Of a stretch of 64,000 bases of DNA, positions 13,608 through 25,550 are shown piece after piece. Below the pieces are notes generated by a model that did not search any database, was not told the DNA's origin, and saw only the letters and a list, made by a program, of their open reading frames with translations. How positions within the stretch are numbered: position 1 is the first letter of the stretch; each line of letters begins with the position of its first letter. The stretch is from Thauera carbonicopians (GTDB lineage: Bacteria; Pseudomonadota; Gammaproteobacteria; Burkholderiales; Rhodocyclaceae): positions 62,001 to 126,000 of the forward strand of contig NZ_JANUXN010000004.1 in assembly GCF_025699485.1 (NCBI RefSeq), in the 5' to 3' direction. Both the position numbers and the translations under genes were made by a program.

Positions 13608-13946
13608 ATGCCGGAGTTCGAAGAGTTGCGCGTCTTTCTGTGTGATGTGCGTATCGCCCATCACATTCGCGGGCGCATCCGGCTGAAGCTGGAGAGCCGC
13701 TCGGTGTCCATCGACGTGCCGCGGACGCAGGCGCGCGAATTCCAGTCCCTGCTCGACCGCACTCCCGGCGTCGCTTCGGTGCAGGTCAATCTGCTGGCGC
13801 GCTCCTGCACCGTGCATTACGACCCCGCGGTGATACCTGAACGGGCCTGGATCGATCTGCTGGGCGGCGTCGACTCGGAGGCCGCGGCGATTCTCGAACG
13901 CATATTGCACGACGCCTATCTGGAGGCCGGCAATGCAAAACTATGA
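13608..13946 (+). CDS. HMA-like domain protein of the fez-like cluster
   Basis: 112 residues. Start at 13608 has a GGAG ribosome site six bases upstream. The fold resembles a heavy-metal-associated domain (LLDRTPGVASVQVNLLARSCTVHYDP), but the metal-binding CxxC is absent. Before it lies an arginine motif, R-G-R-I-R-L-K at residues 21-27, after HH. The same motif occurs at the N-terminus of the P-type ATPase in this cluster (R-G-R-A-R-W-R) and in the protein at 21923-22354. Related small proteins accompany P1B-6 ATPases in ferrosome operons. First gene of six, overlapping the next by 14 bases. Confidence 0.8.
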   Translation: MPEFEELRVFLCDVRIAHHIRGRIRLKLESRSVSIDVPRTQAREFQSLLDRTPGVASVQVNLLARSCTVHYDPAVIPERAWIDLLGGVDSEAAAILERILHDAYLEAGNAKL

Positions 13947-14628
13947 TGAACTGATCCTGCGCACGCAGCGCATCGATCCGGCGGCGCCTTTTCCCGTGGC
14001 GCACCAGGCGGTCAGGATCGCGCTCTACGATGAATATGCCGCCCGCAGCTTCTATGCGCGCGTGGTCGAGTCCTTCGGCGAGCGGGCGCCGTTTTCCAAC
14101 GTGCTGCGCTCGGAAGAGCAGCACGTGACGGCCTTGCTGGGCTTGTGCGAACGCTTCGGCATCCCGCGGCCGCTCGACCCCTTCCCGCAGGAATCCACCG
14201 TCGAGCCGACCTGGCTGGCGAACTGCCAGCGCGCCGTTGCCGGCGAAATCGCCAACGTGCAGATGTATGCCGGGCTGCTGAACCAGGTTGCCGAGCCGGA
14301 AGTGCGCAGGGTGTTCCAGAACCTGCAGGCAGCGGCGCTGCAGCATCATCTGCCCGCCTTTCGCCAGGCCGCGGTCGCGGCGCAGGCGCAGGAAAGCTAC
14401 CACGCCGCGCACGGCATCTCGCCGCAGCAGGCCTATGTGCGCCACGGCCCGCTGTCCGACTTTCTCGAACGTGCCTTCTCGCAGCTCGGGCCTTATGCCG
14501 GGCCGCTCGGCATCTTCAGTCCGCTTCTGCGCAATGCGCACCCCGCCATGCTGGCCGGCATGGTGACGGGGGGCGCAGGAGTCTATCTGTGGAAGACCAG
14601 GACCGGCCGCCATCGCAAGGAGGACTGA
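13933..14628 (+). CDS. Ferritin-like (DUF2202-type) protein
   Basis: 231 residues. Two helix pairs carry carboxylate/histidine positions of the ferritin-like superfamily: DEYAARSFY with EEQHVTALL, then AGEIANVQMY with ALQHHLPAF. The di-iron site can therefore be complete. The C-terminal 60 residues contain a hydrophobic Gly/Ala segment (HPAMLAGMVTGGAGVYLW) followed by a basic tail, so it may be tethered to a membrane, which is unusual for a ferritin-like protein. The ATG lies inside the end of the previous gene. Iron oxidation or delivery within the fez-like system is inferred. Confidence 0.78.
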   Translation: MQNYDELILRTQRIDPAAPFPVAHQAVRIALYDEYAARSFYARVVESFGERAPFSNVLRSEEQHVTALLGLCERFGIPRPLDPFPQESTVEPTWLANCQRAVAGEIANVQMYAGLLNQVAEPEVRRVFQNLQAAALQHHLPAFRQAAVAAQAQESYHAAHGISPQQAYVRHGPLSDFLERAFSQLGPYAGPLGIFSPLLRNAHPAMLAGMVTGGAGVYLWKTRTGRHRKED

Positions 14629-14629
14629 C

Positions 14630-15079
14630 ATGTTCCCGCTATTACCTTTCGTCGCCGGCGTGCTGACCGGTGCAGTTGCCCTCCGCCTGATCAAGACCGA
14701 CAAGACCAAGGCGGGCGTCGAGGCCGGCGTCGAGAAGGCCCGTGCCGGCATGGAAAAGGCACAGGACACGCTGCGCGGCGCCGCAGTATCCAGCCTGGAA
14801 GCGATCGAGAACGCCTCGGCGCGTGCGCGCAAGCGCCTGGCCGCCGAAGACGCGGTAGCAGATGAAGAAGTTGGGGCAGCCCACGCTGCGGCAGCCGATG
14901 CCGGGGCAGCTCCTGCTGCGGCAAGCGCCGATGCTGCACCGGAGCAGGCCGGGAAGCCGGCCCCGCCGCGCAGGAAGCGTGCGCCGCGCGCTGCGGCCAA
15001 GCCGAAGAAGGCAAAGGCCACACCCGCAGCAAGCACTGAAGCCGAACCCGGCGCAGCCGGGGAGGAAGCCGGATCATGA
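14630..15079 (+). CDS. Small membrane protein with Ala/Lys-rich tail
   Basis: 149 residues. Residues 3-20 form one hydrophobic helix (LLPFVAGVLTGAVALRLI). Residues 25-70 are a charged amphipathic helix (KAGVEAGVEKARAGMEKAQ) resembling YtxH-like proteins. The C-terminal half is a low-complexity Ala/Pro/Lys region like histone-type tails (PPRRKRAPRAAAKPKKAK). Strong ribosome site AAGGAGG. Its stop overlaps the next start (ATGA). No family assigned. Small membrane proteins of this kind are part of known fez operons, where they are needed to form or shape the compartment. Confidence 0.75.
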   Translation: MFPLLPFVAGVLTGAVALRLIKTDKTKAGVEAGVEKARAGMEKAQDTLRGAAVSSLEAIENASARARKRLAAEDAVADEEVGAAHAAAADAGAAPAAASADAAPEQAGKPAPPRRKRAPRAAAKPKKAKATPAASTEAEPGAAGEEAGS

Positions 15080-15423
15080 GAAACGCGATCATGCCCTATG
15101 GTGCGGTGCCGGTTGGCGTGCCGCTTCGCGCCAGCGGGGCGACCTTCGTGCAGGGCTTCGTTGCCGGGGGCTGCCTGTCGGCCTTCCAGGACCGTCCTGC
15201 ACAGCTTTCGTCGCCCTCGCCGGCCGAACTGAAGCGGGTGCTGCGCCATGCGCTGCAGGGCGGCACTGCACTGGCTGCCGGCACCCGGGCCGCGGCCGCC
15301 GTCCGCCAACGGAATTACACCGGTGCGCTGGCTGCCGCCGCGGTCGGTGCGGCCGGTGTGCTGATCATCGAACGATTGCTGCGCGACAGCGCGCAGGCCG
15401 AACAGGAGAAGCAAGATGGCTAA
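15076..15423 (+). CDS. Small Gly/Ala-rich membrane protein
   Basis: 115 residues with two hydrophobic Gly/Ala segments (ATFVQGFVAGGCLSAF, and ALAAAAVGAAGVLIIERLL) separated by a basic amphipathic stretch. Such small Gly-rich membrane proteins recall magnetosome and ferrosome membrane proteins in composition, though no homology can be shown here. The ATG overlaps the preceding stop and the following gene starts inside its last codons, so it is a fully coupled member of the cluster. Confidence 0.75.
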   Translation: MRNAIMPYGAVPVGVPLRASGATFVQGFVAGGCLSAFQDRPAQLSSPSPAELKRVLRHALQGGTALAAGTRAAAAVRQRNYTGALAAAAVGAAGVLIIERLLRDSAQAEQEKQDG

Positions 15424-15919
15424 GAAGAACAAGCACGGCCGCGGCAGGCAGGCGATGCAGAACGACGCCTGGCCGGGCCAGTACGGCCAGCCGCCCAATG
15501 CGCAGTACGGCCCGAATGGCCAGTATGGTCCTCAGTACGGTCAATACGGCCAGCAGTACGGAGCACCGCCCTGGGGGCAGTACGGCATGGCGAGCGGCCT
15601 GCCGGGCGGCATGGAAGCCGGCTTCGCCCAGGGGTTCGCCCAAGGCATGGGCCCGCTGCCCCAGCAGGCGGCTGCCGATGGTGGCTTCCTGCAGAACATG
15701 CCGGCCTTCCTGCGCACCGGCAATACCGAGCAGTTCCTGCTCGGTGCGTTGATCGGCGCGGCCGCGGCCTGGGTGCTGAGCGACGAGGAACTGCGCGGCA
15801 AGATCGTGAAGTCGGCGATGAAGCTGTATTCCGGCGTGGCCGGCGGCTTCGAGGAGATGAAGGAGCAGATGGCCGACATCCGCGCTGAAGTCGACGCGGA
15901 GCGCCACGGAGACGCATGA
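15416..15919 (+). CDS. QYG-repeat low-complexity protein with one membrane helix
   Basis: 167 residues in three parts. The basic start is MAKKNKHGRGRQ. Residues about 20-60 are a repeat of Q-Y-G and N-G-Q-Y-G-P units, a prion-like composition. Then a Gly/Met/Phe-rich segment (GMEAGFAQGFAQGMG) leads to one membrane helix (FLLGALIGAAAAWVLS) and an acidic amphipathic helix. Tyr/Gln/Gly-rich segments can self-associate, so a scaffold or phase-separating role on the compartment surface is possible. Its stop overlaps the ATPase start. No family recognised. Confidence 0.75.
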   Translation: MAKKNKHGRGRQAMQNDAWPGQYGQPPNAQYGPNGQYGPQYGQYGQQYGAPPWGQYGMASGLPGGMEAGFAQGFAQGMGPLPQQAAADGGFLQNMPAFLRTGNTEQFLLGALIGAAAAWVLSDEELRGKIVKSAMKLYSGVAGGFEEMKEQMADIRAEVDAERHGDA

Positions 15920-18048
15920 TGGACGCAGGCTGGATGTCCGCGCTCGAACCGGTCCACGCCGCGCGTGGCCGGGCACGCTGGCGCTACACCTGCCGCAAGG
16001 GGGCGCCGCTGGAAGCGCGCGCGATCGTGCGGGCAGTGGAAGCGATTGCCGGCGTGAGCAAGGTGCGGGTCAATCCGGCCGCCCGTTCGCTGGTGGTCGA
16101 GTTCGATCCGGCCGCCACCACGGCCGACCGCATCGCGCTCGACATCCTGCGCATGGCGCCGCTGCCGCGCCCGCATGCACAGGGCGAGGAGCCCAGTGCC
16201 GCGCCGGTGGCGCTGAGCGCGGCCACGCTGCTCGCCACCCGCTCGCTGCAGCCCGGGCTACAGGCGCCGGTGGCGGTGGGCACGGCGATTCCGCTGCTCG
16301 GCGAGGCGGTCGATGACTTCCTCGAGAAGGGCGTCACTTCGCACGTGCTCGAAGCGATGGCGGTGGCGATCTCGATCGGGCGCAAGGACTATCTCGCGGC
16401 GAACATGACTTCCTTCCTGCTCGCCTTGGGCGAGTACCTCGAAGCCTCGATCGAGCGCCGCTCCGACGACCTGCTGAAGCATCTGCTGAAGCCCGACGTG
16501 GGCGAAGTCTGGGTCGAGCGCGACGGCGAGGAGATCCAGCTCGACGCTGCCGAAGTGCGGATGGGCGATACCGTCATCGCCGCCTCCGGGCGGGTGATCC
16601 CGGTCGATGGCACGGTGCTGGGCGGCGAGGCGATGGTCAACGAGGCGACGATGACCGGCGAAAGCGTGCCGGTCGCGCGCCGCCGCGGCGATACGGTGCT
16701 GTCCGGCACCCTGGTCGAGGAAGGCCGCCTGCGCATCTACGCCGAACGGGTCGGCGCCCAGGCCGCGGCGGCGCGGATCGCGGATTTCGTCGAGCATTCG
16801 CTGGCGGTCAAGAGCGCCACCCAGCTCGAAGCCTCGCGCATGGCCGACCGCCTGGTGCCGATGGTGCTCGGCCTGGCCGGCGCCACCTGGCTGGTGTCGG
16901 GCGACTGGCAGCGGGTGGCGGCGGTGCTGCAGGCCGACTATTCCTGCGCGCTGAAGCTGTCGACGCCGGTCGCCTTCAAGGCCGCGATGTACGAGGCCGG
17001 CAAGTCGGGCATGCTGGTCAAGGGCGCGAAGGCGCTCGAACGCCTGGCCGAGGCCGACACCTTCGTCTTCGACAAGACCGGCACGCTGAGCACCGGCAAG
17101 CTCGAAGTGACCGATTCGATCGCCTTCAAGCCGGGCTATTCCCCCGAAGACATCATCAACCTGGCGGCCTCGGTGGAAGAGCACTATTTCCACCCGCTGG
17201 CGCTGGCGGTGGTCGAAGCCTCGCGCCGGCTGCATCACCCGCAGCACTTCGACCACAAGGAAGTCGAGTTCATCGTCGCCCACGGTGTGGCCAGCATCAT
17301 CGACGGCCGGCGCATCGTCGTCGGTTCGCGCCACTTCGTCGAGGACGACGAAGGCATCAGCACGCAGACGCATCGCGACACCATCGAGCGCCTGCACCTG
17401 GAAGGCAAGACCCTGCTCTACATCGGTTTCGGCGGCGAACTGCTCGGCGTCATCGCCCTGCGCGACAGCCTGCGCAGCAACAGCGCCGCCACCGTCCGGC
17501 GCCTGCGGCGCCTGGGCGTGAAGCGGGTGCTGATGCTGACCGGCGACCATCCCGAGCGCGCCCGGGCGATGGCCGGCGAACTGGGGCTGGACGAATTCCA
17601 CGCCGGGCTGATGCCCGAGGACAAGGCCCGCATCCTGCAGGAACTGGCGGCCGGCGGCGCGCGCATCGCCTTCGTCGGCGACGGCGTCAACGATGCGCCG
17701 GCGCTGAGCGGCGCGCACGTCGGCATCTCGATGCACAACGGCGCCGACGTCGCCCGCCTGGCGTCCGACGTCGCGCTGCTCGAAGACGACATCGCGCGGG
17801 TGGCGGACGCGAAAGCGCTGTCGATCGCCACTCAGCGGCTGATCGACAGCAATTTCAAGCTCACCGTCGGCCTCAACACTTCGATCCTGTCGGCCGCCGC
17901 CTTCGGCTGGCTGACGCCGGTGGCGGCCTCGGCGCTGCACAACGGCAGCACCATCGCGATCCTGCTGCGCGCATTGGCCGGTGCCGGCCTGCCGCGCGGC
18001 CGCCGCGCGGGCAAGGCACTGCCGCGCGAAAGGAAGGTGCCGGCATGA
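15916..18048 (+). CDS. fezB: P1B-type ATPase with YSC in place of CPC, FezB-like
   Basis: 710 residues. All catalytic parts are present: TGES (247-250), phosphorylation site D386 in DKTGT, HP at 426-427 and GDGVND (588-593). The membrane metal site is unusual: where copper and zinc pumps have CPC, this one has Y342-S343-C344 before ALKLSTP. The N-terminus has an HMA-like fold without CxxC, preceded by R-G-R-A-R-W-R (residues 17-23). These traits fit the P1B-6 group, whose member FezB builds ferrosomes, lipid-bounded iron stores. Being last of six overlapping genes and next to feoAB supports iron as the cargo. Start at 15916 has GGAG upstream. Confidence 0.85.
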   Translation: MMDAGWMSALEPVHAARGRARWRYTCRKGAPLEARAIVRAVEAIAGVSKVRVNPAARSLVVEFDPAATTADRIALDILRMAPLPRPHAQGEEPSAAPVALSAATLLATRSLQPGLQAPVAVGTAIPLLGEAVDDFLEKGVTSHVLEAMAVAISIGRKDYLAANMTSFLLALGEYLEASIERRSDDLLKHLLKPDVGEVWVERDGEEIQLDAAEVRMGDTVIAASGRVIPVDGTVLGGEAMVNEATMTGESVPVARRRGDTVLSGTLVEEGRLRIYAERVGAQAAAARIADFVEHSLAVKSATQLEASRMADRLVPMVLGLAGATWLVSGDWQRVAAVLQADYSCALKLSTPVAFKAAMYEAGKSGMLVKGAKALERLAEADTFVFDKTGTLSTGKLEVTDSIAFKPGYSPEDIINLAASVEEHYFHPLALAVVEASRRLHHPQHFDHKEVEFIVAHGVASIIDGRRIVVGSRHFVEDDEGISTQTHRDTIERLHLEGKTLLYIGFGGELLGVIALRDSLRSNSAATVRRLRRLGVKRVLMLTGDHPERARAMAGELGLDEFHAGLMPEDKARILQELAAGGARIAFVGDGVNDAPALSGAHVGISMHNGADVARLASDVALLEDDIARVADAKALSIATQRLIDSNFKLTVGLNTSILSAAAFGWLTPVAASALHNGSTIAILLRALAGAGLPRGRRAGKALPRERKVPA

Positions 18049-18299: not shown

Positions 18300-18432
18300 C
18301 GGTCCAGAGCCGACGTGATGACGAAATAAGTCGAGGGCAGTGCCCGGCGCCGTGAGGCCAGGCAAGGTATTCGTCGTTTTGAATGCAAATCAGTATGAAG
18401 CGCGCTGCGCAGATTCGATTGGAGTGAATCAG

Positions 18433-18660
18433 ATGATGCTCAAACAACTCGCGGTGGGCGACCGCGCCAAGGTGTCCGGTTTTGCCGAGGCGGGCAGCCC
18501 CTACCGCCGCAAGCTGCTGTCGATGGGCCTGACACCGGGGGCGGAACTGCAGGTGGTGCGGGTCGCGCCGATGGGCGATCCGGTCGAGATCCGGGTGCGC
18601 GGCTTCGCCCTGACCCTGCGCAAGGGCGAGGCGGATGCGCTGACGGTGGAGAGGCTGTGA
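18433..18660 (+). CDS. feoA: Ferrous iron transport protein A
   Basis: 75 residues, standard FeoA: Y-R-R-K-L-L-S-M-G-L-T-P-G near residues 24-36, and the ending IRVRGFALTLRKGEADALTVERL. Ribosome site GGAG eight bases before ATG 18433. The 133-base gap before it could hold a promoter, but I see no clear Fur box there. Its stop overlaps the feoB start, so FeoA and FeoB are made together. Role: small cytosolic protein needed for FeoB-mediated ferrous iron uptake. Confidence 0.95.
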   Translation: MMLKQLAVGDRAKVSGFAEAGSPYRRKLLSMGLTPGAELQVVRVAPMGDPVEIRVRGFALTLRKGEADALTVERL

Positions 18661-20993
18661 TGAAGAACGAAACCATTCTTGCCCTGGTGGGCAATCCGAA
18701 CTGCGGCAAGACCACGCTGTTCAACGCCCTGACCGGCTCGCGCCAGCGCGTCGGCAACTGGCCCGGCGTGACGGTCGAGAAGAAGAGCGGCGAATACAGC
18801 CACGACGGCCTGCACTTCGAGGTCGTCGATCTGCCCGGCACCTACTCGCTGGACGTCGTCGATCGCGAAGTCTCGCTCGACGAGAGCGTGGCGCGCGACT
18901 ACGTCCATTCGGGTGAGGCCGGGCTGGTCATCAACATCGTCGACGCGTCCAACCTCGAACGCAACCTCTACCTGAGCACCCAGCTCGCCGAAATGCGGGT
19001 GCCGCTGCTGGTGGTACTGAACATGGTCGACGTCGCCCGCGACAAGGGGCTGCGCATCGACGTCGACGCGCTGTCGCACCGCCTGGGCTGCCCGGTAGTG
19101 CCGGTGGTCGCGTCGGAAGGCGAAGGCGTGGATGTGCTGAAAGCGGCGATCCGCAGCGCGGTCAAGGCGCGCCAGCCGGCGAGCGCCACCGTCGCCTACC
19201 AGCCCGAGCTCGAGCAGGCGATCGACGCGCTGGTGCCGAAGCTCGAGTCGGCGGCGCAGGCCGCCGGCACCTCGCCGCGCTGGCTGGCGGTGCGGCTGCT
19301 CGAAGGTGACGATCTGGCGCGCACGGCGGCAGGCAAGGTGCTGGCTGCCGAAGCCGGGCGGCTGGGCGGCGAACTGGGTGAAGACCTCGACATCATGGTG
19401 GCGGATGCGCGCTACGGCCTCGCCAACCGGATCGCCGGCGAAGCGCTGACGGTCAGCGGCCGGGTCGGCCGTGACATCACCGACCGCATCGACCGCGTCG
19501 TGCTGAACCGGGTGCTCGGCGTGCCGATCTTCCTGCTGATGATGTACCTGATGTTCCTGTTCACGATCAACATCGGCGGCGCCTTCATCGACTTCTTCGA
19601 CCAGTTCACCGGCGCGCTGCTGGTCGATGGCCTGGCCGAACTGCTGAACGGCCTCGGTGTGCCGGAATGGCTGAGCTTCCTGCTTGCCCAGGGCATCGGC
19701 GGCGGCATCCAGGTCGTCGCCACCTTCATCCCGGTCATCGGCTTCCTGTTCCTGTTCCTGTCGGTGCTGGAGGATTCCGGCTACATGGCGCGCGCGGCTT
19801 TCGTCATGGACCGCTTCATGCGCTGGGTCGGGCTGCCGGGCAAATCCTTCGTGCCGCTGATCGTCGGCTTCGGCTGCACCGTGCCGGCGATCATGGCGAC
19901 GCGCACGCTGGAGCACCGCCGCGACCGGCTGATGACGATCGCGATGGCGCCCTTCATGTCCTGCGGTGCCCGCCTGCCGGTCTATGTGCTGTTCGCCGCT
20001 GCCTTCTTCCCGCAAGGGGGACAGAACGTGGTGTTCGGGCTGTACGTCATCGGCATCGCGGTGGCGGTGCTGACCGGCCTGGTGCTGCGCCACACGCTGC
20101 TGAAGGGCGAACCGACGCCCTTCATCATGGAACTGCCGCCCTACCACCTGCCGACCGTCCGCGGCGTGCTGATCCACGCCTGGGAGCGGCTGCTGGGCTT
20201 CATCGTGCGCGCCGGACGGGTGATCGTGCCGATGGTGCTGGTGCTGAACGTGCTGAACTCGATCGGCACCGACGGCAGCTACGGCAACGAGGACAGCGAC
20301 GCCTCGGTGCTGGCCGCGGTTGGGCGCAGCATCACGCCGGCGTTCACGCCGATGGGCCTGACCGAGGAGAACTGGCCGGCCGCGGTCGGCATCTTCACCG
20401 GCGTGCTGGCCAAGGAGGCGGTGGTGGGCACGCTGGACGCGACCTACTCGGCGCTTGCCGCCAAGGATGCCGGCGAAGAAGCAGATGGAGAAGAGGAACC
20501 CTTCAACCTGGGCGCCAGCATCGTCGCGGCCTTCGCCACCATCCCCGAGAATCTGATCGACGCGCTGGGCTCCTGGGCCGATCCGATGGGCCTCAACGTC
20601 GGTGACCTCAGCGATGCGGAGGCGGTGGCCGAGGCAGTGGACCAGGACGTGTCGGCCGGCACCTTCGGCGCGATGGCGGCCCGTTTCGACGGCGCTGCCG
20701 GGGCTTTCGCCTACCTGCTGTTCATCCTGCTGTACTTCCCCTGCACGGCGGCGATCGCGGCGGTGTACAACGAATCGGGTACGCGCTGGACAGTGTTCGT
20801 CGCCGCCTGGACGACGGGCCTGGGTTATGGCTTGGCGACGATCTTCTACCAGGCGGCAACCTGGGCGCAGCATCCGGGCTCGTCGATGGCCTGGATCGTC
20901 GGCATCGTCATCGGCTTCGCGATCGTCTTGTTGTCGCTGCGGCGCTACGGCGCACGCGAGGACGGTAGCCTGCCGCTGCCGCAACAGGTTTAG
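18660..20993 (+). CDS. feoB: Ferrous iron transport protein B
   Basis: 777 residues. N-terminal GTPase with G1 GNPNCGKTT, G3 DLPGT and G4 NMVD, then the cytosolic helical domain and the membrane part with two Gate motifs (FVPLIVGFGCTVPAIMATRT and the inverted FTGVLAKEAVVGTL). Imports ferrous iron across the inner membrane, mainly in anoxic or reducing conditions. Start given as ATG 18660; a GTG three bases earlier overlaps the feoA stop and is equally possible. The loop near residues 600-620 is acidic (AGEEADGEEEP). Confidence 0.96.
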   Translation: MKNETILALVGNPNCGKTTLFNALTGSRQRVGNWPGVTVEKKSGEYSHDGLHFEVVDLPGTYSLDVVDREVSLDESVARDYVHSGEAGLVINIVDASNLERNLYLSTQLAEMRVPLLVVLNMVDVARDKGLRIDVDALSHRLGCPVVPVVASEGEGVDVLKAAIRSAVKARQPASATVAYQPELEQAIDALVPKLESAAQAAGTSPRWLAVRLLEGDDLARTAAGKVLAAEAGRLGGELGEDLDIMVADARYGLANRIAGEALTVSGRVGRDITDRIDRVVLNRVLGVPIFLLMMYLMFLFTINIGGAFIDFFDQFTGALLVDGLAELLNGLGVPEWLSFLLAQGIGGGIQVVATFIPVIGFLFLFLSVLEDSGYMARAAFVMDRFMRWVGLPGKSFVPLIVGFGCTVPAIMATRTLEHRRDRLMTIAMAPFMSCGARLPVYVLFAAAFFPQGGQNVVFGLYVIGIAVAVLTGLVLRHTLLKGEPTPFIMELPPYHLPTVRGVLIHAWERLLGFIVRAGRVIVPMVLVLNVLNSIGTDGSYGNEDSDASVLAAVGRSITPAFTPMGLTEENWPAAVGIFTGVLAKEAVVGTLDATYSALAAKDAGEEADGEEEPFNLGASIVAAFATIPENLIDALGSWADPMGLNVGDLSDAEAVAEAVDQDVSAGTFGAMAARFDGAAGAFAYLLFILLYFPCTAAIAAVYNESGTRWTVFVAAWTTGLGYGLATIFYQAATWAQHPGSSMAWIVGIVIGFAIVLLSLRRYGAREDGSLPLPQQV

Positions 20994-21002
20994 GAGGCCG
21001 AT

Positions 21003-21305
21003 ATGATCCTGTCCCGTCTCAGTACCTATCTGCGCGAGCGGCGCCGGGCCAGCGTGGCCGACATGGCGCTTGCGCTGGAAAGCTCGCCCGAGGCGCTCGG
21101 GCCGATGCTGGACACGCTCGAACGCAAGGGGCGCGTGCGCCGGATCGAGGGTGAATCGGGCTGCGGTTCGACCTGCTGCAAATGCGATCCGGCGACGGTG
21201 GCGGTGTATGAATGGGCTGCCGCCGAGAACTCGGGCGCTGGGCAACCGGGGGCGCCTCAGCCGGGGGCGCCACAGCCCGGAGCACGCCAGCCGGGCGCCG
21301 GCTGA
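21003..21305 (+). CDS. feoC: FeoC-like winged-helix protein with Cys cluster
   Basis: 100 residues. Residues 1-48 form a winged helix (LSTYLRERRRASVADMALAL). A compact cysteine set follows, C54, C58, C59 and C61 in GCGSTCCKC, able to bind an Fe-S cluster as FeoC proteins do. The last 25 residues are a Pro/Gly repeat (units of GAPQP and GARQP) absent from usual FeoC. It sits ten bases after feoB with a GGAGG ribosome site. Expected to modulate FeoB according to iron or oxygen. Confidence 0.85.
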   Translation: MILSRLSTYLRERRRASVADMALALESSPEALGPMLDTLERKGRVRRIEGESGCGSTCCKCDPATVAVYEWAAAENSGAGQPGAPQPGAPQPGARQPGAG

Positions 21306-21318
21306 GGAGCGGATCGTG

Positions 21319-21903
21319 ATGGCCGCGCCTGCTGCGCCGGTGCTGGTCGTGATCGGCATCCACCGCGAGGAACTGGCCTTCGGCCGCGAAGTGGCGGCCG
21401 CGCTGGCGCCGGACGAGGCCGACGTGCTGGAGATTCCCGACGGCCTGTCCGGGCGCCGGCCGCGGCCGGACCAGTGCTTCCGCTACGACCTTGCGCACGA
21501 GGCCTTGTACCTGCAACTGCTGCCCCACATGCGCGGCCGCCACCGGCTGCTGATCGACCTGCATGTCGGCGCCGACCGCGATGGTCCCTGTGCCGATCTG
21601 ATGTGCGGCGACGCGGCGCTGGCCGAGCGGCTGCAAGCCGCGCTGGCGCAGGGTGCGGCCGCCGGAGCGCCGGCAAATGGCGTGCGCGTGATCCGGCTTG
21701 GCGCGCCGGATGCCATTCCCACCCGCACCGTGATTCCGGAGCGGATCTGGCGCAATCCGGCCTTTCTCTATCTCTGCATGGAAATCTATCTGGCCGACGA
21801 CGGCAGTGCGCGGCCGCAGGCGGTGGCGCTGGCAAGGCGATTGATCGGCCTTGCCGCGCAGTGCGCTGGTGATGCCGTGGCCGTGCCGCACCGTTGCTGT
21901 TGA
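21319..21903 (+). CDS. M14/AstE-like zinc hydrolase fold protein
   Basis: 194 residues. VLVVIGIHREELAFG resembles the GxHGxE start of succinylglutamate desuccinylase/aspartoacylase and M14 carboxypeptidases (zinc ligands H and E), and LLIDLHVGADRDG supplies the second histidine, as DLHTA does in those families. The protein is shorter than AstE (about 320), so only the core is present. It ends in CC. Start at 21319 follows GAGGAG; a GTG at 21316 is possible. Last gene of the feo operon. Function unknown; the metal ligands are inferred from motif spacing. Confidence 0.6.
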   Translation: MAAPAAPVLVVIGIHREELAFGREVAAALAPDEADVLEIPDGLSGRRPRPDQCFRYDLAHEALYLQLLPHMRGRHRLLIDLHVGADRDGPCADLMCGDAALAERLQAALAQGAAAGAPANGVRVIRLGAPDAIPTRTVIPERIWRNPAFLYLCMEIYLADDGSARPQAVALARRLIGLAAQCAGDAVAVPHRCC

Positions 21904-21922: not shown

Positions 21923-22354
21923 TCAGCGCAGCAGGTGGCGGCGATGGACGCCGAGATGCACGCCCAGGCAGGCGACGAACATGCCGCCGGTGACGGCATG
22001 CCAGCGCTTGTTGCCGGTGGCGGCCAGCGCCAGCGAGGTGGCGAGGCTGCCCATCATGCCGATCTTGGCGCAGCGGTTCACCTGCATCCGCAGCGAACGC
22101 GTGCCGGCGGGGCGCTGCGGCACCGCGAGCGCCTTGTCGATCAGCGCATCGATGTCGTTCTCGAGCCGGATCGGATCGGTCCTGTCCGGTGAATAGTGCA
22201 GCACGATGCTGCCGGCCGCGGCATTCGGTTCGACGACGACCACGCCGTCCACCCGCTTCAACTCGGCTTCGACCTGGGCCAGGCGGGCACGATTGCGCAG
22301 CGCCTTGTCACGGATGCGGATGCGCCCCGGCAGCGAAGAGACGACGCGGCTCAT
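21923..22354 (-). CDS. HMA-like membrane protein with the fez-type arginine motif
   Basis: 143 residues. The start SSLPGRIRIRDK carries the same G-R-x-R motif as the first fez-like gene and the ATPase. An HMA-like fold without CxxC follows (VDGVVVVEPNAAAGSIVLHYSPD), then a hydrophobic segment (IGMMGSLATSLALAATG and GGMFVACLGVHLGV). It is convergent with the feo operon, ending 20 bases from it, with a separate promoter region holding a Fur-like element. It therefore looks like a sixth-kilobase-distant accessory of the same system rather than a chance HMA protein. Confidence 0.78.
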   Translation of the reverse strand: MSRVVSSLPGRIRIRDKALRNRARLAQVEAELKRVDGVVVVEPNAAAGSIVLHYSPDRTDPIRLENDIDALIDKALAVPQRPAGTRSLRMQVNRCAKIGMMGSLATSLALAATGNKRWHAVTGGMFVACLGVHLGVHRRHLLR

Positions 22355-22507: not shown

Positions 22508-23188
22508 TTATGTTTCCACCCAGAGGCGCAGCAGGTTGTGGTAGTGGCTGGTCAGCGCCACGGTCTCGGGCGTCTCGCCGAGCTGCGCGCGCAGGCGCTG
22601 GATGTTCATGTCGAGGTCGAACAGCAGGTGGCGCTTCCAGTCGTCGCGCACCATGCTCTGCGTCCACAGGAAGGAACAGACGCGCACGCCCGCGGTGACC
22701 GGCTCGACGCGGTGCAGGCTGGTCGATGGATAGAGGATCATGTCGCCGGCCGGCAGCCGGACGCGGTGGGTGCCATAGGTGTCCTCGACCACCAGGTCGC
22801 CGCCTGCGTATTCGTCGGGCGCGGTGAAGAACAGCGTCGCCGACACGTCGGTGCGCACGATCTGGCCGCTGCCCGGCGCCTGGCGGATGGCGTTGTCGAC
22901 ATGGTTGCCGAAGTGCTCGCCGCCTTCGTAGCGGTTGAAGAAGGGCGGCAGCACCTGGCGTGGCAGCGCGGCGGAGACGAACAGTGGGTTGCGCATCAGC
23001 GCGGCGGCGACGATGCTGCGCAGGCGGCCGAGCGCCGGCGCATGCTCGGGCAGTTGCCGGTTGCGCTTGACCTGGGCAGCCTGTGCGCCGGCGGTGGCCA
23101 GGCCGTCCGCCCAGTCTGCCGCCGCCAGCAGTTGCCGGCACTCGTCGAGTTCGTCGGGCGTCAGGACTTCGGGAACATGCAGCATCAT
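22508..23188 (-). CDS. piuC: Fe(II)/2-oxoglutarate dioxygenase, PiuC/PKHD type
   Basis: 226 residues of the PKHD-type hydroxylase family. The iron ligands HVD (in FGNHVDNA) and the distal H (SLHRVEPV), plus the 2-oxoglutarate-binding arginine in GVRVCSF, are all present. In pseudomonads piuC lies next to the siderophore receptor piuA, as here with a Fiu/PiuA-like receptor 70 bases upstream. A terminator separates the two, so piuC is probably expressed by read-through or its own promoter. AAGGA precedes the start; a second ATG follows directly. The physiological substrate of PiuC is not established. Confidence 0.92.
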
Positions 23189-23210
23189 CGCGGGAATTCC
23201 TTGGAAAATG

Positions 23211-23244
23211 AAAAAACCGCCCGCCGATGAAGCCTGGCGGGCGG
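23211..23244 (-). terminator. Rho-independent terminator after the Fiu-type receptor gene
   Basis: On the minus strand, CCGCCCGCC pairs with GGCGGGCGG across a ten-base loop and is followed by TTTTTT (23211-23216). It lies 15 bases beyond the receptor stop and before piuC, so it would limit read-through from the Fur-controlled receptor into piuC. Confidence 0.85.
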
Positions 23245-23258
23245 CAAGGAGAGCAGCT

Positions 23259-25550
23259 TCAGAACTGGAAGTTCGCCGACAGCAGGGCCGAACGCGGCGT
23301 GCCCGGCGTGTAGCGGCCGCCGTTGTTGTTCATCGACGCGACGTACTTCTTGTCGGTGAGGTTGTACACGTTCAGCTGCAGCGAGACGTTCTTGCTGATC
23401 TCGTAGGATGCCATCGCGTCATACACCCAGTAGTCGTCGACCTCAGGCATGTTGGTGGTGGCGGTGGCGTTGTTGGACGAGCGCAGCATCGAATCGACGT
23501 AGCGCGCACCGCCGCCGACCGTCAGGCCGAAGGGCAGGCGATAGGTGGTCCATGCGGTGAAAGTCAGTTCCGGCGACCACTGCACCGCGTTGCCCTGCTG
23601 GCTGGTGCTGCCTTCCTTGACGTCGGTCTTCATCTTCGCCAGGCCGGCCGACACCTGCCATGCCGGCGTGATCGCGCCGACCAGGCCCAGCTCGATGCCC
23701 TTCACCGTCTTCTTGCCCCATTGGGTGACGTCGCCGGTGACCGGGTCGGTCTGGGTGAGATCGTTCTTGTTCTCGGTACGGTAGATCGCGGCAGTGAAGG
23801 CGAGCCGTTCGTCGAGCAGATCCCACTTGGTGCCCAGCTCGATGGTCTTCGCTTCCTGCGGGTCCATGTTCGGGCTGTTGATGCCGGTGGCGCTGAGGGT
23901 GAAGTTCGAGCCGCCCGGCGGTTGCTTCGACGTGGCGTAGGCGGCATAGATGCTGCCGTTGGCCGCCGGCTTGTACAGCGCGCCGACCTTCCAGCTCGTC
24001 AGCGTGTCCTTGGCGTCGATGTTCTGCGGCACCAGGGTGCCGACCGGCAGCGTCGGATGGCTGGTGGCGGTGGAAGCGACGGTGTTGCGGGCTTCGGTGC
24101 GGTAGCGGTCGAGGCGCACGCCGGCGGTGAATTGCCAGCGGTCGCCGAGCTTGGCGGTGTCGAACAGGTAGGCGCCGATGGTCGTCGTCTCGCCGTCGGC
24201 CTTGCGTCCGTCCGTGCCCAGGTCGTAGTTGCTGACCGGATCGTGGCGGCTGGGGTTGTACAGATTGCCCGGTACCATGCTGCCGGCGCCGGTCAGGGTC
24301 TTGGTCAACTGGCGCTCGTGGATGAATTCCAGGCCGGCGCTCAGCGAGTGCGTCAGCGCGCCGGTGCTGAACTCGGTCGTCAGGTTGGTCTGGTTGGTCA
24401 GCAGTTCGTTTTCCTGCCACTTGGTCTGGCGGCTGCGGGTCACCGTCCATGTTTCGGGGTTGTTGATGTTGCCCGCGTTGATGCCGTTCGGATTGGTGGC
24501 GCTGGAGTTGGCGCTGCCGGGGGCGGTCAGCAACAGTTCGTGCCGCACCTTGCCCCAGCGCGAAGTGTTGCGCACCGTGGTGCCGGGCGCGATGTCGTGC
24601 TCGATCTTGACGGTGAACATGTCCAGGCTGACGTCCTCGAAATCGTGCTTGGAGCCGTAGAAATTCTCGGTGTCGACCTTGCGCGCGCCCACGCCGGCGG
24701 CGGCGAGCGCGGCGTTGTAGTAGCCCTTGAGTCCGACCGTCGGGATGCCGCCGTCGGGCACGTTGTCCTGTTCGACGTGCAGGTAGGACAGCGTGGTGCG
24801 GGTCGGCGTGTTGAGGCCGAAGGCGATCGAGGGCGCGATGCCCCAGCGGTTGCTTTCCAGGTGGTCGCGGCCGGCGACGCCGCCGTCCTGCTTCATGACG
24901 TTGAGGCGGAAGGCCGAGGTTTCGCCGAGTTGCCGGTTCACGTCGGCGGTCATGCGCAGGTTCTCGGCAGTGCCGTAGCTGATGCTGCCGCTCAGCGCGT
25001 TGTCGGCGAAGGGCGACTTGGACGACAGGTTGACGTAGCCGGACGGCGCGCCGCGGCCGTTGTCGGCGCCCACCGCGCCCTTGGAGATCTCGATCTGCTC
25101 GACGTTGAAGGTGTCGCGGCCGAAGTTGCCGAGGTCGCGCACGTTGTCGATGAACACGCTGCCCGAGGTATCGAAGCCGCGCATGAAGATGTTGTCCTTC
25201 TGGTTGCTGTTGCCGCCTTCGCCCAGCAGCAGGGTGATGCCCGGGGTGTTGCGCAGCGCTTCGGTCAGCGAAGTGGCCTGCTGCTCGCGCAGGATTTCCT
25301 TCTTGATCACGGTGATGGTCTGCGGCGTGTCGACCAGCGGCTGGGTGAACTTGGGCGAGGACACCGTGTCGGCCTTGTAGGTCTGTTCGCCGGTGGCGGT
25401 GACTTCGACTTTCGGCAGCGTGGGCGTCTGGGCGGCCTGCTGGGCCGCGGCGGTGCCGGGCAGGGCCAGGGCGAGAAGGGTGAGGGCGGTGGTCTGGTGC
25501 AGGCGCGGCTGCTGCGGCAAGGCGTGTTTCTGGCTCTCGATGTGGGCCAT
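23259..25550 (-). CDS. fiu: TonB-dependent siderophore receptor, Fiu/PiuA type
   Basis: 763 residues. Signal peptide, TonB-box region [12 protein letters not shown], plug domain ([51 protein letters not shown]) and a barrel ending in FQF. The plug wording and the neighbour piuC match Fiu/PiuA receptors for monomeric catechols and related ferric siderophores. The specific ligand is inferred. Upstream on the same strand are a Fur box 93-111 bases before the ATG and a long leader with two AGCCAGCC units. Confidence 0.93.

Follow-up and report, generated by a model that had tools for sequence, protein, structure and literature searches.

Ferrosomes are recently described iron organelles with a short and mostly unexplained list of parts, and the locus studied here raises the question of whether a ferritin-like protein can be one of them. 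The locus lies in a 64,000-nucleotide stretch of the Thauera carbonicopians genome (RefSeq assembly GCF_025699485.1, contig NZ_JANUXN010000004.1; hereafter the window), in which a preliminary description had read six open reading frames (ORFs) at 13608-18048 as a six-gene ferrosome (fez) operon whose ferritin-like product would link two iron-storage strategies. As a fez-type locus it holds up, on the P1B-6 features of its ATPase and on homologues elsewhere; as the canonical six it does not. We consider it likely that the locus is a fez-type set in which the ferritin-like gene, g2, supplies a ferritin-derived added component, most likely a membrane-attached ferrosome protein, and we regard the locus as a new fez variant because of this gene and of a displaced FezC gene.

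The features of the locus are the following, in window coordinates (lengths in amino acids, aa):

13608-13946, + strand, g1: HMA-like protein, 112 aa counted from ATG (mechanical ORF start 13539)
13933-14628, + strand, g2: ferritin-like (DUF2202-like) protein comprising a predicted four-helix bundle, a C-terminal extension specific to fez copies and a tail of weak hydrophobicity, 231 aa
14630-15079, + strand, g3: small protein whose N-terminal membrane segment precedes a region rich in Ala and Lys, 149 aa; homologues elsewhere
15076-15423, + strand, g4: small membrane protein, 115 aa; homologues elsewhere
15416-15919, + strand, g5: low-complexity N-terminus rich in QYG, a single membrane segment and, at the C-terminal end, a conserved stretch rich in Glu and Lys, 167 aa
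15916-18048, + strand, g6: FezB-type P1B-6 ATPase (DYSCALKLSTP in the fourth membrane segment, LHNGST in the sixth), 710 aa
18045-18299, + strand: feoA, 4-base overlap with the FezB gene
18340-18660, + strand: second feoA
18657-20993, + strand: feoB, ferrous iron uptake
21003-21305, + strand: feoC-like regulator
21923-22354, - strand: FezC-like protein (DUF4405-like cytochrome) combining an HMA_2 domain with two membrane segments that carry conserved His

The tight packing of the six ORFs is confirmed, with neighbours overlapping by 4 to 14 bases except for a 1-base gap between g2 and g3, and feoA-feoA-feoB-feoC (feoAABC) follows directly. The proximity to feo pointed out in the preliminary description is closer than mere neighbourhood: the end of g6 overlaps the start of feoA by 4 bases, as it also does in loci L110, L119 and L123 (L and G numbers are our labels for loci and genomes). 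The six-gene block is more than a chance arrangement, because it is conserved in other species and because the ratio of nonsynonymous to synonymous substitution rates (dN/dS) of the six genes and feoB, taken against two Thauera genomes, is 0.13-0.47, with g2 at 0.13-0.15 and FezB at 0.15-0.19. The six genes first listed are thus real, but that inventory missed the FezC gene at 21923-22354 (-), and the gene count that had been offered as support proved a coincidental match, because the ferritin-like gene comes on top of the usual set, as a seventh, and FezC maps beyond the six-gene block.

The ATPase type of g6 supports the fez assignment. Its product, an E1-E2 ATPase by Pfam, lacks CxxC, carries LHNGST in the sixth membrane segment and has DYSCALKLSTP at the position of CPC in Cu/Zn pumps. 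According to excerpts from PMC9374683, HN in the sixth membrane segment is a P1B6 feature; g6 therefore combines HN in the sixth segment with no CPC in the fourth and no N-terminal CxxC, as expected of a P1B-6 ATPase. Residues D341, C344, K347, S349-T350-P351 and L674-H675-N676-G677 are invariant in 12 of 12 aligned FezB sequences. The FezB closest to that of the window is the one of Thauera butanivorans NBRC 103042 (97%). In a 73-row tree, 69 FezB rows (67 different), g6 among them, separated with support 100 from two Cu-type (CopA) and two Zn/Cd-type ATPases, which are 4 of the genome's 6 other P-type ATPases. Together with the P1B-6 features, this bears out the original description of a P1B-type ATPase with a non-CPC metal site and no CxxC. 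The tree omits L092, in which the gene is split, L045, in which it is broken, and L028-L030, which come from the genomes of L110, L114 and L119; it also omits 25 of the 34 rows of L058-L091, the paralogues found in L054 and L057, and the loci L159 and L161-L163. The window ATPase falls in a 47-row group that also holds those of Rhodoblastus and of Shewanella genome G535, and this group defines the 38 window-type loci (L099-L137 without L120) among the locus set, i.e., the best 80 of 590 related stretches.

The partner genes point the same way. Excerpts from PMC10979944 describe FezC as a DUF4405-type cytochrome of the ferrosome. The 21923-22354 (-) protein exceeds the Pfam cut-off for HMA_2 and matches DUF4405 below the cut-off (E 0.0094); it resembles FezC/DUF4405 cytochromes in its HMA_2 start, two membrane segments and conserved His, and would be predicted to bind heme. 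Among the 31 FezC-like ORFs that the window-type loci contain, 24 show its membrane His pattern, one of these matches (L136) being probably due to chance, and the seven ORFs without the pattern keep the first two His. No FezC-like ORF was found in 7 of the 38 loci, and four Magnetococcales FezC-like proteins are without the membrane part. The downstream, opposite-strand position of FezC in the window recurs in L104, L106, L110, L114, L115, L119, L122 and L127. As for the small proteins, g1 scores just over the Pfam cut-off for HMA (25.6 bits against 24.8) and under that for HMA_2 (28.9 against 30), carries an HHIRGRIRLK stretch and no CxxC, and has homologues at the matching position in other loci. 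Neither g3 nor g4 has a useful Pfam match; g5, with its seven QYG and one membrane segment as first described, matches YtxH and DUF5132, both below cut-off.

Comparison with other genomes places these genes in a recurrent operon. By phmmer homology (E up to 1e-3), fezC-g1-g3-g4-g5-FezB runs in a single direction without g2 in 14 of the 38 window-type loci, g2 is present in 16, and 8 are partial or without recognised genes. Operons of this order, homologous to the window genes, occur in Aeromonas, Magnetospirillum, Azospirillum, Rhodoblastus and one Shewanella, so that the HMA-like protein, g3, g4, g5 and FezC all have counterparts in six-gene operons of other genera, in keeping with the earlier proposal that the small proteins are fez components. 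FezB-like matches were found in 12 of 129 Shewanella genomes: that of G535 is 60% identical to the window's and stands in exactly this order, while the other 11 are 39-42% identical, and the four of them examined (L155, L059, L062 and L063) are of the Vibrio type. A 48-genome class around G212 was also searched; judging from how L093 and L097 match, it is probably Magnetococcia. The window itself departs from six adjacent genes of this order in that the ferritin-like gene is inserted and FezC lies on the other strand, and it has the HMA-like protein, the small membrane proteins and FezC as partners; we treat the six-gene order as an arrangement and not a definition, since known fez clusters differ. 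Loci L101, L105 and L161 have fezC-g1-g2-g3-g4-g5 in one direction and then FezB, which in L161 is cut by the locus end. The run of fez with feo is shared by the window, several other Thauera, a Pseudothauera and Azotobacter vinelandii.

Further arrangements were seen among the collected loci. A second fez type, in L058-L092 (Vibrio, Photobacterium, Hafnia, Kluyvera, Ferrimonas and others), comprises HMA, a Tyr/Gly/His-rich protein, g4-like and g5-like proteins and FezB; in 34 of the 35 loci there is also a FezC-like gene in divergent orientation. Two loci from deltaproteobacterial metagenome-assembled genomes (MAGs; L096 and L098) carry, close to feoAB, a back-to-back pair of FezB-like genes. 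The laboratory aerobe A. vinelandii CA (L104, NC_021149.1) has its fez genes, the ferritin-like one included, together with feo, a further gene and FezC in the Thauera arrangement.

What, then, is the ferritin-like gene doing in this set? By Pfam, g2 has a DUF2202 match below cut-off (E 4.6e-4) and no PF00210 (Ferritin) match at E up to 1; three PF00210 genes lie elsewhere in the genome, and fez would therefore add to ordinary iron storage. A structural model built on 34 sequences has a predicted local distance difference test score (pLDDT) of 93-98 over residues 11-150, falling from 70 to 50 in the extension (161-190) and below 50 in the tail. Its top match among solved structures is MJ0754 (3q4n; E 2.4e-4, template modelling score 0.63 by target, root-mean-square deviation 8.5), a tighter fit is 2ib0 (E 3e-3, 0.75-0.80 by target, deviation 2.8), and numerous ferritins and bacterioferritins come next, with E above 4e-3; searched by sequence against solved structures, the g2 alignment gave only E 0.38-0.82. 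The model thus supports the ferritin-like four-helix bundle fold proposed at the outset, whereas the proposed membrane tail is likely only, being weakly hydrophobic (best 17-residue mean 1.12).

Conservation within g2 shifts attention from its iron site to its extension. Five putative iron ligands (E34, E61, H64, E105 and H139), chosen from the ferritin-like alignment pattern, are all present in 12 of 26 fez-linked g2 against 8 of 8 copies without the extension. At least one is missing from the other 14 fez-linked proteins, including that of A. vinelandii (E61 to G), and diiron ligands are thus not conserved across the fez-linked family. This loss weakens the suggested link between two iron-storage strategies, which may still apply to the ligand-intact window copy. 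By comparison, E154, H157, G161, H171, G172 and E179 of the extension and P204, G209 and G213 of the tail are invariant in 26 of 26 fez-linked g2. The extension is held more strictly than the iron site, which favours a structural or docking role. In Thauera all five ligands are present in 7 of 8 copies, and a ferroxidase role is therefore possible there. From these patterns we take g2 to be a ferrosome component that derives from a ferritin-like protein, and not a conserved ferroxidase, with catalysis by the window copy possible.

The distribution of g2 ties it to this branch of FezB. Fez-linked g2 occurs in Thauera, Pseudothauera, some Azoarcus, Oligella, Ottowia and A. vinelandii; FezB is present in 10 of 29 Thauera genomes and g2 in 8 of those 10, while Thauera G009 and G028 have a bundle-only relative and no FezB. 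In an order-level sample of 399 genomes, which excludes the two g2-less Thauera, FezB was found at E up to 1e-110 in 15; all 7 genomes whose FezB is at least 62% identical to that of the window carry the extended g2, which is absent from the 392 others. No g2-like match was found in the 8 sample genomes with FezB at 36-42% identity, and 6 of 13 ferritin-like hits in the sample match the bundle only or less, in genomes without such FezB. The 26 fez-linked g2 form one clade apart from the 8 copies without the extension (support 99/99, bundle columns minus ligand positions); L037, a relative without the extension and with five ligands intact, was outside this 34-row alignment, and L164 was dropped as identical to L127. 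Identities of g2 and FezB rise together (Mantel r 0.83, 22 loci, 0 of 2000 permutations as high). The presence of g2 on the FezB tree needs 7 changes, 4 of them forced by strongly supported branches, which, with the single fez-linked clade, suggests losses or transfer of whole operons. A literature search, with the founding ferrosome papers outside it, found no report of a ferritin-like protein in a fez operon.

Two observations stand beside this distribution. The 8 sample genomes with the more distant FezB (G055, G623, G664, G701, G736, G793, G875 and G900) belong to one family (f20) and are 2.0-2.9 Mb in size. In a Methylocystaceae MAG (L094, 4947-5531, -), a ligand-intact ferritin-like gene without the extension is divergent from the fez operon, an arrangement that possibly resembles the state before g2 joined the operon.

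We infer ferrosome formation, the direction of iron transport and the roles of FezC and g1 to g5 along the following lines. FeoB would carry Fe(II) into the cell, FezB would pump it from the cytoplasm into lipid-bounded vesicles, FezC as a membrane cytochrome would adjust the redox state of iron, and the HMA-like protein with g3, g4 and g5 would form the membrane or give it its shape. A DUF2202-like four-helix protein of diiron type, at first free-standing, would have gained the C-terminal extension and tail and joined the operon; its descendant g2, now most likely a membrane-attached ferrosome protein, may pair with the Tyr/Gly-rich domain of g5 and, where its ligands survive as in the window, may still bind or oxidise iron. 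More tentatively, and at somewhat less than even chances in our estimation, a ferritin-like enzyme was recruited as a structural organelle part whose iron site is dispensable and whose Glu/His extension is invariant, and which works with a Tyr/Gly-rich domain of g5, of a type able to phase-separate, in gathering or holding iron at the vesicle membrane.

The pairing with g5 rests on its QYG-rich low-complexity stretch (15416-15735). Across genera, the low-complexity N-terminus of g5 spans 60-137 aa with 3-18 aromatics where g2 is present (22 loci), against 40-58 aa and 0-5 aromatics in 23 loci without g2, where starts were set by pattern, the length threshold was post hoc and 4 of 49 loci (L101, L118, L124 and L034) were unparsed; in the two g2-less Thauera it has 51 aa and no Tyr.

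Several points weigh against the reading of g2 as an added part of a fez-type locus. The FezB set was gathered by FezB-type peptide patterns or FezB searches and the tree holds few other P1B types, so that it is no test of every P1B type; it was also a quick search with long-branch warnings from the program. The general cadmium-family model of NCBIfam (TIGR01512) passes on g6 (353.9 against a cut-off of 313.5), a P1B-6-specific model is absent among the 25 NCBIfam families listed for g6, and fez membership rests on gene content and kin because the FezB comparison set holds no experimentally proven FezB. The window g2 keeps all five putative ligands. Ligand loss takes 4 changes on the best tree and 4-6 across bootstraps, of which a single one is imposed by strongly supported branches. 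Two Thauera (G012 and G025) without g2 keep g1, g3, g4, g5 and FezB, so g2 is not essential to the operon, and these two and L034 are also without feo inside the stretch fetched. The link between g2 and g5 is not significant after tree correction (p 0.125; of five independent pairs, 4 go the same way, 0 the other way and 1 is without difference), and it is therefore a lead and not a result. Finally, consensus scans found no Fur or FNR site above g1: the Fur consensus has 36 matches in the window, three of them (12-13 of 19) in or near the locus, and no FNR-like site was found near g1.

Set against our reading is the view that g2 is a working ferroxidase or iron chaperone at the ferrosome, oxidising or handing over Fe(II) in a way that would suit hosts meeting oxygen, with ligand loss in some lineages as secondary decay. 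The five ligands kept by the window g2, 11 other fez-linked copies and all 8 relatives without the extension agree with it, as does a predicted bundle (pLDDT 93-98) that matches ferritin-superfamily structures; yet the gene persists with an invariant extension in the 14 fez-linked copies that miss a ligand, and in the window g2 itself Leu136 replaces the usual fourth-helix Glu (ExxH), so that we judge this view rather unlikely, if still the more serious of the alternatives.

A different role for the whole locus would be a plasma-membrane efflux platform in which the small proteins stabilise an Fe(II)-exporting ATPase, as in mycobacterial PacL1-CtpC or the iron/cobalt exporter PmtA. The likeness is a small membrane partner of a P1B-6-like ATPase: excerpts from PMC9374683 describe PacL1 as a small protein that has a single membrane segment and a region of repeats, and say that genes for DUF6110 proteins typically accompany those for P1B6 ATPases, and PMC7012047 gives PmtA as an Fe(II)/Co(II) efflux pump. 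However, CtpC has CPC and the window FezB does not, and the small proteins of the window have no Pfam DUF1490 or DUF6110 match at E up to 1 (HMMER filters drop many weak matches), on which their membership of these PacL scaffold families was rejected. FezC and the HMA-like protein are moreover fez parts, and an operon that runs into feoAABC would fit uptake with storage better than uptake with export; we hold efflux to be improbable. Less probable still is a fez-derived system that handles another metal or serves detoxification only, toward which the cadmium-family match points, the metal specificity of g6 being predicted, and against which stand the feoA overlap and the run shared with feoB and feoC in the window, several Thauera, Pseudothauera and A. 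vinelandii.

Around the locus, promoter and terminator scans gave no excess over shuffles. A gene at ~21319-21903 (+), directly after feoC, has no Pfam match at E up to 0.01; its product, which we take to be M14/AstE-like by appearance, has relatives that follow feo in loci of Thauera, A. vinelandii, Pseudothauera, Hydrogenophilus and Gallionellaceae. A PKHD-type 2OG-Fe(II) hydroxylase and a TonB-dependent receptor at 22508-25550 (-) adjoin fez/feo and are probably part of an iron-uptake island.

Together, these results add a candidate part to the ferrosome and place the gene set in Thauera, some Azoarcus and A. vinelandii. Natural pairs with and without g2 exist within one genus, and the role of a ferritin-like protein in the ferrosome, and the importance of its iron site, become directly testable; if the more tentative reading of g2 as a structural organelle part is true, a ferritin-derived organelle protein would join two known routes of bacterial iron storage.

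Among known systems, the fez clusters of Desulfovibrio magneticus and Clostridioides difficile have partner sets that differ from the window's. The former shares the FezB transporter and FezC with it, and the latter, of FezA and FezB, shares FezB (excerpts from PMC10979944 and PMC12574912). Relative to DUF2202-like ferritin-like proteins such as MJ0754 (3q4n), the fez g2 has the predicted four-helix bundle in common, along with the five-ligand pattern seen in relatives without the extension, but adds the conserved C-terminal extension and often loses ligands. Closest in content are the fez operons of two further species. Shewanella putrefaciens is said to carry a six-gene fez operon, reportedly from work by Grant et al. 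in 2022. Rhodopseudomonas palustris CGA009 has six fez genes, RPA2333-2338, according to excerpts from PMC12016538. The six genes of both are presumably the same six as fezC-g1-g3-g4-g5-FezB, in which case the window would share with them the P1B-6 ATPase, FezC, the HMA-like protein and three small membrane proteins. It differs in adding the ferritin-like gene after the HMA gene and a QYG-rich extension to g5, and in carrying FezC on the opposite strand, past feo and a further gene.

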